A model generated the notes under the pieces. It did not search any database. It was not told the DNA's origin and saw nothing but the letters and a program-made list of their open reading frames with translations. From the NCBI RefSeq assembly GCF_000519085.1, contig NZ_KI912577.1, positions 4,210,035 to 4,274,034 of the forward strand: a DNA stretch of 64,000 nt, in the 5' to 3' direction. Below, piece after piece: positions 11,401 through 19,120 of the stretch. The stretch's first letter is position 1, and each line of letters starts with the position of its first letter. This DNA comes from Methylobacterium sp. 10. GTDB lineage: Bacteria; Pseudomonadota; Alphaproteobacteria; Rhizobiales; Beijerinckiaceae. Both the position numbers and the translations under genes were made by a program.

Positions 11401-11537
11401 TGCTGTCCCTGGTCTTCGTACCGGCCGTATTCCTGCTGATCGACAGCCTCGGCAAGTTCATTAGGCGCCTGTTCGGCCGCTTCGTCGGCGCCCGCGACGA
11501 GGCGGTACCCGGCCCCACCCCGAGCGCCGCCCGCTGA
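8445..11537 (+). CDS. RND family multidrug efflux pump
   Basis: A 1030-residue AcrB/MdtB-like proton-driven exporter of the inner membrane, of normal family length. The N-terminus (AWAIRKPIGPLVLFLVLIVLG) and GLPVTRMPNIDVP are typical. The proton-relay pair occurs in TM4 as GILVDDAIVEIENI (Asp at about residues 402-403). The C-terminal half repeats the fold, with LMGLVTKNAIMLVDFAVEE and RARPIVMTTIAMAAGMVP. It sits 50 bp after the adaptor, the last gene of the TetR-controlled operon. The substrate cannot be read from sequence; hydrophobic drugs or biocides are usual. Confidence 0.93.
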   Translation: MRLNISAWAIRKPIGPLVLFLVLIVLGLVSFRGLPVTRMPNIDVPIVSVAITQSGAAPSELQTQVTKWVEDSIAGVRGVKHITSAITEGSSVTTVEFRLEVNTDRAVNDVKDAVSKIRINLPRTIDEPVISRVEIAGLPILIYGVKAPAMTPAELSWLVEDKIARTLQGVKGVGGVERVGGVAREMRVVLQPDRLLALGITAAEVNRQLRLTSADMAGGRGEVGGREQSIRTLAASRTVRDLKATSIVLAGGRKVRLDDLALVQDAIEEPRTFARFNGEPVVAFAVSRGSGASDAEVAAAVEKRIAEFRQTYPDLDFETIDSSVSATIGSYDSAMHTLIEGAVLAVIVVFLFLRDWRATLIAAVALPLSVFPTFWAMDAMGFTLNGISLLAITLVTGILVDDAIVEIENIVRHMRMGKSAYRAALEGADEIGLAVIAITATLIAVFAPVSFMGGIAGRYFMQFGLTIAVSVFMSLLVARLITPMLAAYFLRDHGHHDEREGWVMRAYGRLVGWSVRHRVITLIVGLALFAASLASTGLLPSGFVPKQDNARTLFMVELAPGARLPDTIAVADRLVARIRSLPEVTSVFVDGGRQVGGKKETRLATLIVNLTPKNSRAKKQATVETDISALIAEEPDIRSWFLRDSGQRDLALVVGGADAEVVAEVAARLQRDMAAIPHLVSVMSTAPLNRTEVRIRPKEGSAADLGVSTDTIAETVRVGTIGDIGLNLAKFNAADRQIPIRVQLPESARGAVSRLENLKVPAKNGTAVPLAAVADIELDQGPGAIERYDRVIRVAVEANMEGSDALGSLIAQALETPTAKSLPPGVTIRQTGDAEIMGEVFSGFLLAMGAGIMMVYAVLVLLFGNFLQPLTILFSLPLSIGGAILGLLILNMPISMPVVIGILMLMGLVTKNAIMLVDFAVEEMARGVDRVTAIVDAGRKRARPIVMTTIAMAAGMVPSALALGVGGEFRAPMAVAVISGLIVSTLLSLVFVPAVFLLIDSLGKFIRRLFGRFVGARDEAVPGPTPSAAR

Positions 11538-11794
11538 CGTGGCGGCGGAGCCGGGATCAGGAACTTTCCCCAACCATGCGTCGGGCGAGGTCTCCGGCCT
11601 GCCGATCGCGGGACATTTGGAAGCACATTTCGCACGCCCTCGCCTATAGTCCGGCTTGTCAACACGTCTATCGGCCCGTTGCCGACGCGAGGGCGAAATG
11701 AAGAGCCTCAACCTCAAGCACAGTCGTTGCCGTCATGCGTGTCTCGCCGATTTCGGCGGAGCTCATCATGGGACGATTATGACGAATAGGGTTG

Positions 11795-12079
11795 ATGGTC
11801 ATGGGTTATCACGACACGCGATTTGAGGCGGTTGGGGCCGGCCCCGCATGGGCTTTAGGCGGCGCCATCGCGCCGAGGCACTTTCGCCGCGCCTATGGCA
11901 GGGCGGCGGTGGAGGCTGCCATTGAGAACGGGCTGATGCCCGAGGAGCTGTCCGAAGTGCTGGGCGGCCGCCGCGTTGTCGAGGCCTTCCCGGTCGATGG
12001 CGGCGAGAGCGTCTCCGACTACGCCCATCGCGCGGTGGCCGAGATGATGGTCGCCTATCTCAGCTACGCCCCGGCCTGA
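11795..12079 (+). CDS. Hypothetical small soluble protein
   Basis: About 94 residues with no membrane segment. The region AYGRAAVEAAIENGLMPEEL looks helical. Start candidates are ATG 11795 and ATG 11801; neither has a strong ribosome-binding site. I do not recognise it. It lies between the RND pump and a Tat-exported binding protein, separated from both, and looks monocistronic. It is supported by reading-frame length and GC-rich codon use only. Confidence 0.4.
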   Translation: MVMGYHDTRFEAVGAGPAWALGGAIAPRHFRRAYGRAAVEAAIENGLMPEELSEVLGGRRVVEAFPVDGGESVSDYAHRAVAEMMVAYLSYAPA

Positions 12080-12149
12080 CCCGCCGCCGGGCCTCCCCGA
12101 CCTTCCATTGATCCATGAAGGCGGGCCGCTCGCGGCCCTGGAGACGACC

Positions 12150-13223
12150 ATGACCGACGACCTGCTGTCCCGACGCCGCCTGCTGAGAGCGGGCGCAACC
12201 GTCGCGGCCGCTCTGCCCCTCGGCCTTACCGCGACGGCGGGGCGTGCCTGGGTTCCCGGCCCTGCCGCGCCCTTCGATCCCGGTCCTCTCTGCGCGCCGG
12301 CGGCGGCCACCGAGGCGTGGAGCGGTCCGCTCCGGCCCATCAAGCTCGCCTGGAACGCCAACGCCGTCTGCACGGCCGCCGCCCCCGTTGCCAAGGAGCG
12401 CGGAATTTTCGCCGCTCACGGGCTCGACGTGGAGTTCATCAATTTCGGTGGGTCCACGGAAGCCCTGCTGGAGGCCATCGCCACCGGCAAGGCCGATGCC
12501 GGGATCGGCATGGCCCTGCGCTGGCTGAAGCCTCTCGAACAAGGCTTCGACGTCAAGATCACCGCCGGCCTCCATGGCGGCTGCCTGAGGCTGCTCGGCG
12601 CGAAATCTGCCGGCATCAGCGACATCGCCTCCCTGAAGGGCAAGACCATCGCCATCAGCGACCATGCCAGCCCGGCCAAGAACTTCTTCGCCCTGTTGCT
12701 GTCCGATGCCGGCATCGATCCCGACCGGGAGGTGGAGTGGCGGCAGTACCCGGCCGATCTCCTCAACCTCGCCGTGGAGAAGGGCGAGGCCCAGGCCCTG
12801 GCCGATGCCGACCCGCGTACCTTCATCTGGCTCAGGGACCCGCGCTTCACGGAAGTCGCTACCAATCTGACGGGCATCTTCGCCACGCGCTCCTGCTGCG
12901 TCGTGGCCCTGCGCGGCAGCCTGATCCGCAACGACCGGGCGGTGGCCACCGCCCTCACCCGCGCCATCCTCCAGGGCGGGCACCGCGTCGCCACCGATCC
13001 GCTGGACGCCGCCGGCATCTTCTCGACTTACGGCGGCAAGGGCTCGGTGGAGGATCTGGCGGCGATGCTGCGCAGCCATACCCACGATCACCGACCCGTG
13101 GGCGTCACCCTCAAGCAGGAAATCGCCCTCTACGGCGACGAACTGAAGCGCGTGAACGTGATCCGCCGCTCCACCGACACGGCGAAATTCGCCGACCGGG
13201 TCTATGCCGACGTGCTGAGCTGA
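12150..13223 (+). CDS. ABC importer substrate-binding protein, NitT/TauT (SsuA) type
   Basis: A 357-residue periplasmic binding protein. It begins with a twin-arginine-like signal (SRRRLLRAG, then a hydrophobic stretch ending TATAGRAW), so Tat export is likely. The fold signature is IKLAWNANAVCTAAAPVAKE, GIFAAHGLDVEFINFGGSTE and the domain-boundary motif DIASLKGKTIAISDHASPAK. ATG 12150 replaces an upstream TTG because it begins the Tat signal. It forms an operon with the permease (9-bp gap) and ATPase. The ligand is unknown; the family carries nitrate, sulfonates, taurine and thiamine precursors. Cysteines (TRSCCVVALR) near the pocket are unusual. Confidence 0.82.
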   Translation: MTDDLLSRRRLLRAGATVAAALPLGLTATAGRAWVPGPAAPFDPGPLCAPAAATEAWSGPLRPIKLAWNANAVCTAAAPVAKERGIFAAHGLDVEFINFGGSTEALLEAIATGKADAGIGMALRWLKPLEQGFDVKITAGLHGGCLRLLGAKSAGISDIASLKGKTIAISDHASPAKNFFALLLSDAGIDPDREVEWRQYPADLLNLAVEKGEAQALADADPRTFIWLRDPRFTEVATNLTGIFATRSCCVVALRGSLIRNDRAVATALTRAILQGGHRVATDPLDAAGIFSTYGGKGSVEDLAAMLRSHTHDHRPVGVTLKQEIALYGDELKRVNVIRRSTDTAKFADRVYADVLS

Positions 13224-15793: not shown

Positions 15794-18700
15794 ATGGCAA
15801 AACGCCGGACCCGGACGTCTCCCGACAGCGCCTCCGAGGAGCCGGTCGCTCCCCTCGTTCCCACCGGCGCCCTGGCCGTGGCGCTTCTCGACCTCGTGGC
15901 CCTGAACAAGCCTCTGATCCACATGGTGCGCGAGACGCACCGGCAGGATGCCATCGCCGCAATCCTCCGTGCCCTGGCCCCGGATCGCAGCGTGGCGATC
16001 TACCCGGAATGGGATTGCCTGCCCTTCGACCGGACCTCGCCGTCGCGCGGCGTCATGGGGCAGCGCACGGGCGTGTTGCGCTGGCTGACGGATGCCGCCG
16101 CCCTGCCCGACATCGTCCTGACGACCGCCCCTGCCCTGATCCAGCGGGTTCCGCCGCCCGGGACCTGGGCGGAGGCGCATCTCGAGATCCATGTCGGCGA
16201 CGTCTTCGATCCGGCTGCGATCACCGCGACGTTGCAGCGCCTGGGCTACATCCTCGATGACCGGGTCGACGAGCCGGGCGAGGTGGCGGTCTGGGGGCGC
16301 ACGGTCGACGTGTTCCCCGCCGCGGCACCGCGCCCCTGCCGGATCGAGCACGAGGGCGGCCGCGTCACCGCCATCCGGTCCTACGATCCGGTGTCCCAGC
16401 GCTCCCTGGCGGAAGCCGCGTGTCTGGTCGTCGATCCGGCTACGGAAATCCTCCTCCCCGAAGGATCGGAGACCCGGCTCCGGCCCTTCACCGGCCAGGA
16501 GCATCAGCTTCCCCGCTTCTATCCCGCCCTGACGACGGTACTCGACTACGTCCCCGATGCCCGCCTCGTGGTGGAGACCGGCGCCGAGGAGCGTGCCGCC
16601 GCCTTCTTCGAACAGATCGCTGAGGGGCAGGACACCGGCGGTCGCAATGACGGCAGTCGTAACGGCGGCAGTGGGAAGGGCGACTTCGGCGAGCTCTACC
16701 TCGATCCCCGCAGCTGGGCCTCGCTTCAGGAGGCGCGCCGCGTCGCCACCGCGACGGCGGAGGAATCCGAGGATCTGGCGATCCCCGCCTTCGTGCGGAA
16801 GGCCCGTCCCAACGCGGCCCTGGCCGAGACCCTGCGCCGGCACCTGGAGGCGGGCGAGCGCATCCTGCTGACGGGGCCGGAGGAACCCCTCGGTCGCCTG
16901 ATCCGCGTCGCCGAACGGTCGCTGGGGCGCAAGGCCCGGCGCGTGGCGGACTGGACCGCGGTGGCCCGCGCCAGGCCCGGCGCGATCCTGGCGCTGGCCG
17001 CGCCCATTGAGGCGGGGTTCAGGGTGCCGGGACAGGGTGTCTGCGTCATCGCCGCCGCCGACCTGTTCGGGAGCCGGGCCGCCGTCGAGGAGGGCGAGCC
17101 CGTCGCGAGCCTTCCCATCGGCGAGGTGGAGCTGCGCGTCGGCGATGTGGCGGTGGATCGCGACAACGGTCTCTGCGTCTTCGAAGGCCTGGAGCGCGTC
17201 GAGACCGGAGAGGATGGCGGCGAGGACGCCCTCCGGCTGCGCTTTGCCGGGAATGCGATCCTGATGGTCCCGGTCTCCCAGGCCGACCGGATCTGGCGCT
17301 ACGGCTCGGAGGTCGAGGCGGTCACCCTCGACAAGCTCGAAGGCGGGTCCTGGGGCCGTCGGCGCCTCGAAGCCGAGGCGTGCATGGCAAAAGCCGCCCG
17401 CATGATGCTCGCCGCCGCCGAGGCGCGCCGGGCGATCGAGGCGCCGGTCCTGTCGCCGCCGCTGCGGGAGATGGAGCGCTTCGCCGCCGGGTTCGGGTTC
17501 AACCTCACCGCCGATCAGGCCAGGGCGGTGAACGGTGTCTTGGGCGATCTCGCTTCGGGGCGGCCGATGGACCGCCTCGTCTGCGGCGATGTCGGCTTCG
17601 GCAAGACCGAGGTGGCCCTGCGCGCCGCCGCCGCGGCGATCTTCGCCGGCCGCCAGGTGGCGGTGGTGGCGCCCACCACCGTTCTGGCCCGCCAGCATGT
17701 GCGGACCTTCACCCGGCGCTTCGCCCGCTTCGGCATCGAGGTCGCCCATCTCTCCCGCCTCGTCTCCCCGGCCGAAGCGAAGCGCGTGAAGGCGGGGCTC
17801 GCCGACGGCAGCATCCGCCTCGTCGTCGGCACCCATTGCCTCACCGCCAAGGGCGTCGCTTTCGCAGATCTCGGCCTCGTGGTCATCGACGAGGAGCAGC
17901 GCTTCGGAGCGAAGATGAAGGAGGCCCTGCGAAAGACGGCGGGAGACGGCCACGTCCTGACGCTTACGGCGACGCCGATCCCCCGGACCCTGCAATCCGC
18001 CCTGGTCGGCCTGCAATCCCTGAGCGTCATCGCGACGCCGCCCGCGGTGCGCCAGCCCATCCGCACGGTGATCGCGCCGTTCGAGGCTGAATCCCTCCGC
18101 GACGCGCTCATGCGCGAGCATCGCCGGGGCGGTCAGAGCTTCGTCGTGTGTCCGCGCATCGAGGATATCGGCCCCATGGCGGAGCGACTGGCCAAGCTCG
18201 TCCCCGGCTTGCACACGATGATCGCCCATGGCGACCTCAAGCCGGCGGAGATGGACGATGTGATGGTGCGCTTCGCCGATGGCGAGGGCGACGTGCTTCT
18301 GGCGACCAGCATCATCGAGAGCGGCCTCGACGTGCCGCGTGCCAACACCATGCTGGTCTGGGACGCCGAGCGCTTCGGCCTGTCCCAGCTGCACCAGCTG
18401 CGGGGCCGGGTCGGGCGTGGCCAGCGCCGGGGCGTCGTTCACCTGCTCCACCAGCCGGAGAAGCCGCTGAGTCCGGCGACGGAAAAGCGCCTTCGCACCC
18501 TGGAGGCCCTGGACCGGCTCGGCGCGGGCTTCGCCATCAGCGCCCGCGACCTCGACCTGCGCGGAGCGGGCGACCTCGTGGGCGAGAACCAGGCCGGCCA
18601 CGTCAAGCTGATCGGGCTCGGACTCTATCAGCACCTCCTGCACCTCGCCTTGCGGGCCGCGAAGGGGGAGGTCGCGGAGGATTGGACGCCCGAGATCCGG

Positions 18701-19120
18701 ATCGGCCTGTCCGGTGGCGTGCCGGCCGATTACGTGCCGGAGCCGGACGTGCGGCTGAGCCTCTACACCCGCCTATTGCGCCTCACGACCCCGGACGAGG
18801 TCGAGGCGCTCCGCCACGAGGTGACCGACCGGTTCGGTCCGCCACCGGAGGCGTTCGAGGCCCTCGTCACCCTGGCCCGCCTCCGGGTCGGGTGCCTCGA
18901 ACTCGGGATCGCGCGGTTGAGCGGCGGCCCGCAGGGGCTGGCGGCGGATTTTCGTGCCAATGCCCCGCCGATCCTGCTGCCGGTCAACGCGCATATCGAG
19001 CGTCGCGACCGCCGCGTGCTGTTGCGCGCCGGCTGCGAGGATCCGGTCGAGCGCGGTTGCCTCGCAGCTCGGTTCCTCGAACGCCTGCGGGAGGCCAGGA
19101 CGCGGCGCCCGGCGGGGTGA
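15794..19120 (+). CDS. Mfd-like transcription-repair coupling helicase (divergent paralogue)
   Basis: A 1108-residue SF2 DNA translocase. The N-terminal third matches the UvrB-homology module of Mfd (about residues 30-250; PGEVAVWGRTVDVFPAAAPR near 160-180). A short CarD-like RNA-polymerase-interaction region follows (GDVAVDRDNGLCVFEGLER, about 450), but it lacks the usual H-x-G-I-G-x-Y pattern. The helicase core is intact: Walker A GDVGFGKTE (about 598), DEEQRFG box (about 699), motif V SGLDVPRAN (about 843) and QLRGRVGRG. The C-terminal TRCF domain is present but short. A Gly/Asn/Ser-rich insert lies at about residues 280-300. Given these differences I take it as an Mfd paralogue rather than the main mfd; partner and role are unproven. 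Confidence 0.78.
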   Translation: MAKRRTRTSPDSASEEPVAPLVPTGALAVALLDLVALNKPLIHMVRETHRQDAIAAILRALAPDRSVAIYPEWDCLPFDRTSPSRGVMGQRTGVLRWLTDAAALPDIVLTTAPALIQRVPPPGTWAEAHLEIHVGDVFDPAAITATLQRLGYILDDRVDEPGEVAVWGRTVDVFPAAAPRPCRIEHEGGRVTAIRSYDPVSQRSLAEAACLVVDPATEILLPEGSETRLRPFTGQEHQLPRFYPALTTVLDYVPDARLVVETGAEERAAAFFEQIAEGQDTGGRNDGSRNGGSGKGDFGELYLDPRSWASLQEARRVATATAEESEDLAIPAFVRKARPNAALAETLRRHLEAGERILLTGPEEPLGRLIRVAERSLGRKARRVADWTAVARARPGAILALAAPIEAGFRVPGQGVCVIAAADLFGSRAAVEEGEPVASLPIGEVELRVGDVAVDRDNGLCVFEGLERVETGEDGGEDALRLRFAGNAILMVPVSQADRIWRYGSEVEAVTLDKLEGGSWGRRRLEAEACMAKAARMMLAAAEARRAIEAPVLSPPLREMERFAAGFGFNLTADQARAVNGVLGDLASGRPMDRLVCGDVGFGKTEVALRAAAAAIFAGRQVAVVAPTTVLARQHVRTFTRRFARFGIEVAHLSRLVSPAEAKRVKAGLADGSIRLVVGTHCLTAKGVAFADLGLVVIDEEQRFGAKMKEALRKTAGDGHVLTLTATPIPRTLQSALVGLQSLSVIATPPAVRQPIRTVIAPFEAESLRDALMREHRRGGQSFVVCPRIEDIGPMAERLAKLVPGLHTMIAHGDLKPAEMDDVMVRFADGEGDVLLATSIIESGLDVPRANTMLVWDAERFGLSQLHQLRGRVGRGQRRGVVHLLHQPEKPLSPATEKRLRTLEALDRLGAGFAISARDLDLRGAGDLVGENQAGHVKLIGLGLYQHLLHLALRAAKGEVAEDWTPEIRIGLSGGVPADYVPEPDVRLSLYTRLLRLTTPDEVEALRHEVTDRFGPPPEAFEALVTLARLRVGCLELGIARLSGGPQGLAADFRANAPPILLPVNAHIERRDRRVLLRAGCEDPVERGCLAARFLERLREARTRRPAG

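Follow-up and report, generated by a model that had tools for sequence, protein, structure and literature searches.

A 64,000-nucleotide stretch of the genome of Methylobacterium sp. 10 (contig NZ_KI912577.1, positions 4,210,035–4,274,034; hereafter, the window) encodes, at its positions 15794–19120 on the forward strand, a second type of Mfd protein (P0001). Judged from its sequence, the gene encodes an Mfd paralogue that has lost a landmark of its UvrB-like domain D2, at a putative docking surface for UvrA, rather than in the region contacting RNA polymerase (RNAP), where an initial annotation of the stretch had placed the loss. We propose, with a probability of roughly 45%, that the protein is a translocase able to engage stalled RNAP and remove it, in which UvrA recruitment is absent or poor, as in the R165A/R181A/F185A mutant of E. 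coli Mfd in vitro. Second-type Mfd is a distinct group with a patchy distribution in the Alphaproteobacteria, and it is also borne on plasmids.

The gene is a single intact open frame with an ATG start, encoding 1108 amino acids. Its product has the domain order of Mfd, with PF17757, PF02559, PF00270, PF00271, and PF03461 each scoring above the Pfam cut-off, and its score against the mfd equivalog model TIGR00580 (739.5–742.2 bits) is below the cut-off of 800. The RecG cut-offs were also missed (381.3 vs. 659.4 for TIGR00643 and 389.6 vs. 718 for the best RecG model, NF008168). A canonical mfd gene occurs elsewhere in the same genome, adjoining recG; its product of 1199 amino acids scores 988.7 bits with TIGR00580, which bears out the earlier suggestion that the window gene is a paralogue. 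The claim that the translocase is intact also held. K604, E700, R923, and Q933 in the ATPase and translocation in RecG (TRG) motifs correspond to the unchanged K634, E730, R953, and Q963 of E. coli Mfd, and the checked motor residues are intact in 55/55 second-type proteins. K604 (the Walker lysine) and E700 lie in translocase domain 1 (DEAD, PF00270; residues 572–734, positions 17507–17995), and R923 and Q933 lie beyond the end of the Pfam match to translocase domain 2 (Helicase_C, PF00271; residues 767–875, positions 18092–18418).

The UvrA-docking surface and the RNAP-interaction domain

The D2 domain (UvrB_inter, PF17757; residues 130–218, positions 16181–16447) scored 53.9 bits. A region of a full-length structure model, probably corresponding to D2, matched the UvrA–UvrB interaction domains (3fpn_B) over 90 columns, with a template modeling (TM) score of 0.89 by target length; the mean predicted local distance difference test (pLDDT) value of this model was 64.9, with poor values in the motor, and the model was used for D2 only. 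The first structure alignment comprised 16 of 20 rows, with L082 lost because of a stop in the stretch and L087, L093, and L099 omitted. According to passages of one study (PMC3025350), R165, R181, and F185 of E. coli Mfd are potential UvrA-interacting residues, of which F185 is exposed and both arginines are buried against D7. In the same study, a mutant with alanine at all three positions is reported to displace RNAP about as fast as the wild type, to have raised ATPase activity, and to support little strand bias of repair.

Residues at these positions were counted in unique sequences assigned to groups by score rather than by tree: 98 second-type proteins (61 from Methylobacterium, many of them nearly alike), 37 canonical alphaproteobacterial proteins, and 20 other canonical proteins, which include E. 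coli Mfd twice (L044, and the fragment L043, which is gapped at 185). Phenylalanine occurs at the F185 position in 0/97 second-type proteins with a residue there, and in 0/36 of those from outside Methylobacterium; the position is occupied by D (32), A (24), E (23), S (8), Q (3), R, I, or T (2 each), or G (1). In canonical Mfd, F185 is present in all 37 alphaproteobacterial proteins and in 18/19 others (55/56 together). Similarly, D187 is retained in 2/97 second-type proteins vs. 53/56 canonical proteins. At the sequence level, the loss of F185 is a change common to the whole second type, at a putative UvrA-docking surface, and the statement in the initial annotation that the UvrB-like module is conserved does not hold for this surface. 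In the window protein, the equivalents of R165, R181, and F185 are W167 (positions 16292–16294), R183, and E187, and the pairwise alignment concurs; only the second of the three is present. The putative former UvrA-docking stretch (residues 183–189, positions 16340–16360) thus has R183 retained, E187 for F185, and G189 for D187. In the UvrB of the same genome, the equivalent places are occupied by R, R, and L-F-G-D, so that the motif is retained in both of the proteins with which UvrA normally partners in the cell.

The RNAP-interaction domain (RID; CarD_TRCF_RID, PF02559; residues 447–503, positions 17132–17302) scored 40.6 bits against a gathering cut-off of 23, and 46.2 bits in another run. 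In E. coli Mfd, the mutation L499R causes a deficiency in binding to the RNAP beta subunit, according to PMC5910403. The position equivalent to L499 is V469 in the window protein, which is within the set of I, L, V, and M found in canonical alphaproteobacterial Mfd (I 25, L 6, V 5, M 1); in the second type as a whole, it is V in 51 proteins, I in 41, L in 4, M in 1, and A in 1 (n = 98). A structure model of the RID (mean pLDDT 63.4, a middling value) resembled Mycobacterium smegmatis Mfd (Z 8.4), CarD bound to the RNAP beta1 domain (4xax_B; Z 8.2, root-mean-square deviation 1.8, 57 residues), and E. coli Mfd (2eyq_B; Z 8.1), with unrelated folds (Tudor, BAH, and PWWP) coming next at Z 5.8 to 6.9; values below 8 may reflect a common arrangement. 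The RID alignment contained 12 rows, because the anchors missed 11/22 loci. The sequence, the modeled fold, and the hydrophobic residue at the L499 position are consistent with a domain that may still bind RNAP.

Proposed mechanism and alternative explanations

In the proposed mechanism, the RID of the paralogue would grip the beta1 domain of RNAP, the intact RecG-like motor would push from the upstream DNA, and the stalled polymerase would be dislodged or rescued. UvrA would be recruited poorly or not at all, because the D2 docking surface is remodeled by the loss of F185 and D187. The paralogue would then clear roadblocks without coupling to excision repair, and the canonical Mfd beside it would perform the coupling. 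We infer RNAP binding, RNAP displacement, the missing UvrA recruitment, and the cellular role from sequences and structure models. In line with such a division of labor, a canonical mfd gene is also present in 26/27 second-type carriers outside Methylobacterium.

Mfd is commonly regarded as a single protein with two tasks, the removal of RNAP and the recruitment of UvrA. If the proposal is true, transcription-coupled repair has been split naturally into its two halves in this paralogue, and a protein with a changed UvrA face and a kept RNAP contact would allow both activities to be separated in vivo beside canonical Mfd. It is conceivable, at close to even odds, that the second type constitutes a mobile alphaproteobacterial Mfd-like family that clears RNAP without excision repair, or that hands the site to another partner via a re-aimed D2.

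The latter option, taken as an explanation of its own, is that D2 is directed at a different repair, recombination, or replication factor and thereby links stalled RNAP with another pathway. D2 is retained as a domain, as shown by the PF17757 and 3fpn_B matches, and it contains conserved residues specific to the second type (D at E. coli position 153 in 49/55 proteins, D at 157 in 54/55, and A at 174 in 50/55), indicating constraint rather than decay. The "other partner" considered in the initial annotation would fit here, on the UvrA side. However, second-type proteins have no common residue at the F185 position, and no neighboring gene recurring across lineages points to a D2 partner; we regard this explanation as distinctly less probable than RNAP removal with little or no UvrA recruitment.

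Several observations weigh against our proposal, and some of those on the UvrA side favor a redundant back-up TRCF performing ordinary transcription-coupled repair, for which R165 and R181 would be sufficient to bind UvrA. R181 is retained in 96/96 second-type proteins and R165 in 70/96 (W in 15, H in 9, and Q in 2), and passages of PMC7385628 name both residues as critical for UvrA binding. That both are mostly kept lowers the weight of our proposal and raises that of the back-up function. Furthermore, no test of F185 alone appears in the passages of the cited papers, and two second-type proteins (L050 and L125) have a hydrophobic residue, I, at this position. The domain order is that of canonical Mfd, and most proteins retain the residues of D7 that face D2 (E1045 in 54/55, D1048 in 47/55, and R1049 in 54/55), suggesting that the auto-inhibitory D2:D7 clamp probably persists. 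In the window protein, these residues are E1009, D1012, and R1013, in the C-terminal D7 (TRCF, PF03461; residues 975–1057, positions 18716–18964). In addition, one genome with a second-type piece at a contig end (G067, 93% complete) had no canonical mfd at E 1e−100. On the other hand, the residue lost in the second type, F185, is present in nearly all canonical Mfds and in the UvrB of the genome, D187 is lost with it, the score is below the mfd equivalog cut-off, and R165 is replaced by W in the lineage of the window protein. A back-up function is therefore improbable, slightly more so than a re-aimed D2. As a separate observation, lineage f35 (L119, L120, and L142–L145) has a long branch and R for D1048, which may loosen the D2:D7 clamp.

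Some of the observations on the RNAP side favor the explanation given in the initial annotation, namely that the RNAP contact region is degenerate and that the protein is a DNA translocase independent of RNAP. The CarD-like string quoted there, GDVAVDRDNGLCVFEGLER, was located at residues 450–468, and the H-x-x-H-G-x-G stretch is indeed altered in the window protein (D455, N458, and C461). Among the Methylobacterium copies, D replaces H485 in 59/61 and C replaces G491 in 61/61. Across the whole second type, R492 is replaced in 94/98 proteins (by V, L, I, or A in 92/98), and the S/T530 position is W in 97/98 (W501 in the window protein, positions 17294–17296). When the columns conserved in canonical Mfd were counted, within what we took to be the domain boundaries, the RID was not better kept overall than D2 (5/21 and 5/18 columns, respectively, at at least 90%); the motor domains kept 55/81 and 52/86. 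The two structure models, of the full-length protein and of the RID, are both of middling confidence. However, D485 and C491 are restricted to Methylobacterium and were not seen in the other 37 second-type proteins, in which H485 is kept in 37/37 and H485, H488, and G489 together in 26/37. The PF02559 score above its cut-off, the resemblance of the RID model to the CarD and Mfd domains, and the hydrophobic residue (V, I, L, or M) at the L499 position in 97/98 proteins also argue against a lost contact. The motif is altered in this genus, but degeneracy of the contact region as a whole is not supported; movement independent of RNAP is unlikely, and the changes specific to Methylobacterium leave it some room. 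Both surfaces have diverged in sequence, but one landmark of the putative UvrA surface is gone throughout the group, and the known RNAP-critical position is still hydrophobic.

The second type is under purifying selection, although it is freer than the canonical copy. The ratios of nonsynonymous to synonymous substitution rates (dN/dS) in comparisons with two relatives (G008 and G035) were 0.098 and 0.220; the corresponding values of the canonical copy were 0.037 and 0.117. Although these values are 1.9 to 2.6 times higher than those of the canonical copy and some genomes have split or stop-bearing frames, the low absolute ratios, the intact motor residues, and the presence of the gene in 36/39 genomes of the genus make a decaying duplicate without function highly improbable.

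Family, distribution, and genomic setting

When homologues from genomes and plasmids were scored against the window protein, the canonical Mfd of its genome, and E. coli Mfd, they split into two groups. A phylogenetic tree based on full-length sequences also placed the second type and canonical Mfd on separate branches: the 45 second-type rows formed one side of a branch with a support of 100 in the Shimodaira–Hasegawa-like approximate likelihood ratio test (SH-aLRT), and the 31 canonical alphaproteobacterial rows (SH-aLRT 99) and 16 others (100) were placed apart. This tree included 92 of 112 proteins (20 were omitted for speed), was built by a quick method without bootstrapping, and contained two flagged long end branches. 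In a RecG-rooted tree of the motor only, the second type fell outside all canonical Mfds of the Pseudomonadota, but only 24% of 200 bootstrap trees recovered it as one side of a branch, and it needed two changes, apparently because an Azospirillum row (L125) was loose. The approximately unbiased (AU) test rejected neither the second-type clade (p-AU 0.497) nor a clade of the second type with alphaproteobacterial canonical Mfd (p-AU 0.411), so that the motor alone is compatible with both topologies as regards the age of the duplication and a single origin of the second type. In the full-length tree, the Methylobacterium copies grouped with those of G354 and G040, from other families (support 83), and not with those of G135 and G161, two genomes with canonical Mfds close to those of Methylobacterium. 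This intermixing of families, unlike the canonical grouping, suggests horizontal transfer. Keyword searches of open-licence PMC papers turned up none on a second mfd, which does not prove that there is none.

The second type was found in 36/39 Methylobacterium genomes examined. In the first genus set, 35/37 were carriers, with G014 (94% complete) and G033 lacking it; of the further genus genomes, G165 has a copy and G391 does not. The gene is partial or split in G015, G019, G026, and G036, and in G026, both Mfd genes are in two pieces, through either an assembly error or a real break. A 95% identical copy is present in strain LMG 24788 of Methylobacterium bullatum, to which the source genome is closely related. 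Carriers accounted for 15/114 genomes in the rest of the family, 12/238 in the other families of the order, and 5/387 in a class-wide sample at E 1e−122 (two of them Methylobacterium). In a phylum-wide sample of 299 genomes, all 16 matching genomes were from the class Alphaproteobacteria; five genomes (G444, G623, G952, G962, and G524) with 390–402 bits were not counted, as these scores are at or near the canonical range (up to 396). A second match in G471 in the class-wide sample (418.9 bits, 1176 amino acids) is probably its canonical copy. Several of these searches scored only three to five candidates per genome at first look, and when residues 1–499 were used as the query at E 1e−45, 3/387 genomes were found and a known carrier (G185) was missed.

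Nine of 110 matching plasmid records were examined, from Sphingomonas (two), Sphingobium, Rhizobium (two), Sinorhizobium, Mesorhizobium, Paracoccus, and Azospirillum. All nine copies score as second type and fall with it in the full-length tree; others of the 110 records, for example from Escherichia, may be other helicases. The plasmid copies are annotated as "DEAD/DEAH box helicase", "helicase-related protein", or mfd_2, and a distinct family can go unrecognized under such labels in alphaproteobacterial records.

The initial annotation had also noted a Gly/Asn-rich insert, which is present at residues 279–297 (positions 16628–16684). It is mostly below a pLDDT of 50 in the model, is absent from the 94% identical copy in G008, and varies in the other relatives examined, so that it is better described as a variable linker.

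None of the forms GTTC-N7-GTTC, GAAC-N7-GAAC, or GAAC-N7-GTTC was found in the stretch of at most 300 bases preceding the estimated start at 112 second-type loci, which include repeat genomes under several identifiers, fragments, and short flanks and therefore represent fewer independent promoters. LexA control was rejected for these searched forms, which leaves other regulation possible; GTTC-N(6–8)-GTTC occurred 5 times in the window against 3.84 expected, none of them near the gene.

The neighbors in the window are transporter, Bac_luciferase, and acyl-CoA dehydrogenase genes, which recur beside the gene only in L072–L075 of 41 named loci, many with cut flanks; four other loci (L077, L099, L106, and L110) have only an ABC ATPase of 46–49% identity, 7 to 10 kb away. 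The neighbors are thus not conserved beyond the nearest relatives. Over 40 loci, neighbor clusters held 3 to 6 loci and, read by eye, were ABC ATPase-like, SDR-like, LysR-like, DUF2252, and mfd shadow frames; these look like common families, and no operon partner emerged across lineages. Among 15 Methylobacterium loci, a DUF2252 gene (PF10009) adjoins the second-type mfd on either side in six (L077, L090, L092, L096, L106, and L109), the L090 copy lying at 11417–12907 (PF10009, 432.1 bits); it is also near mfd in L222 and is not beside the window copy. A frame of up to 585 amino acids, with no assigned family, lies 1.8 to 4.1 kb before the gene in 4/15 of these loci (L077, L080, L081, and L106). 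The other clusters, excluding mfd and its shadow frames, held at most three loci each.

Comparison with known systems

Second-type Mfd has the same order of UvrB-like module, RID, RecG-like motor, and D7 as canonical Mfd/TRCF (TIGR00580; E. coli Mfd, PDB 2eyq and 6x26), and the checked motor residues are identical. It differs in its sub-cut-off score (742.2 vs. 800), the loss of F185 and D187, and its separate branch in the tree. Further differences are the missing D1b positions F227, R228, F235, and Y245 of the E. coli protein, the W at 530, which is a hallmark of the second type within the RID, and two hallmarks of the motor, A at 643 and P at 785, each found in 55/55 second-type proteins.

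The translocase module is shared with RecG, with 40% identity to the RecG of the same genome over residues 520–937, but the window protein is far below the RecG cut-offs, and RecG forms its own clade in the tree. RecG is not known to have the UvrB-like module or the RID. The RID model is similar to the RNAP-binding domains of CarD/CdnL (4xax_B, Z 8.2) and the UvrD Tudor domain (6yhz, Z 8.0). However, CarD/CdnL is a separate transcription factor and the UvrD Tudor domain is a helicase tail, whereas the domain described here lies within an Mfd.

The closest functional model that we propose is the E. coli Mfd D2AAA mutant (R165A R181A F185A), as described in passages of PMC3025350: both proteins have a changed UvrA-docking surface, with the motor and RID in place. 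D2AAA is an engineered triple mutant with raised ATPase activity, whereas the natural protein keeps R181, the D7 face, and in most copies R165, which the window protein lacks.

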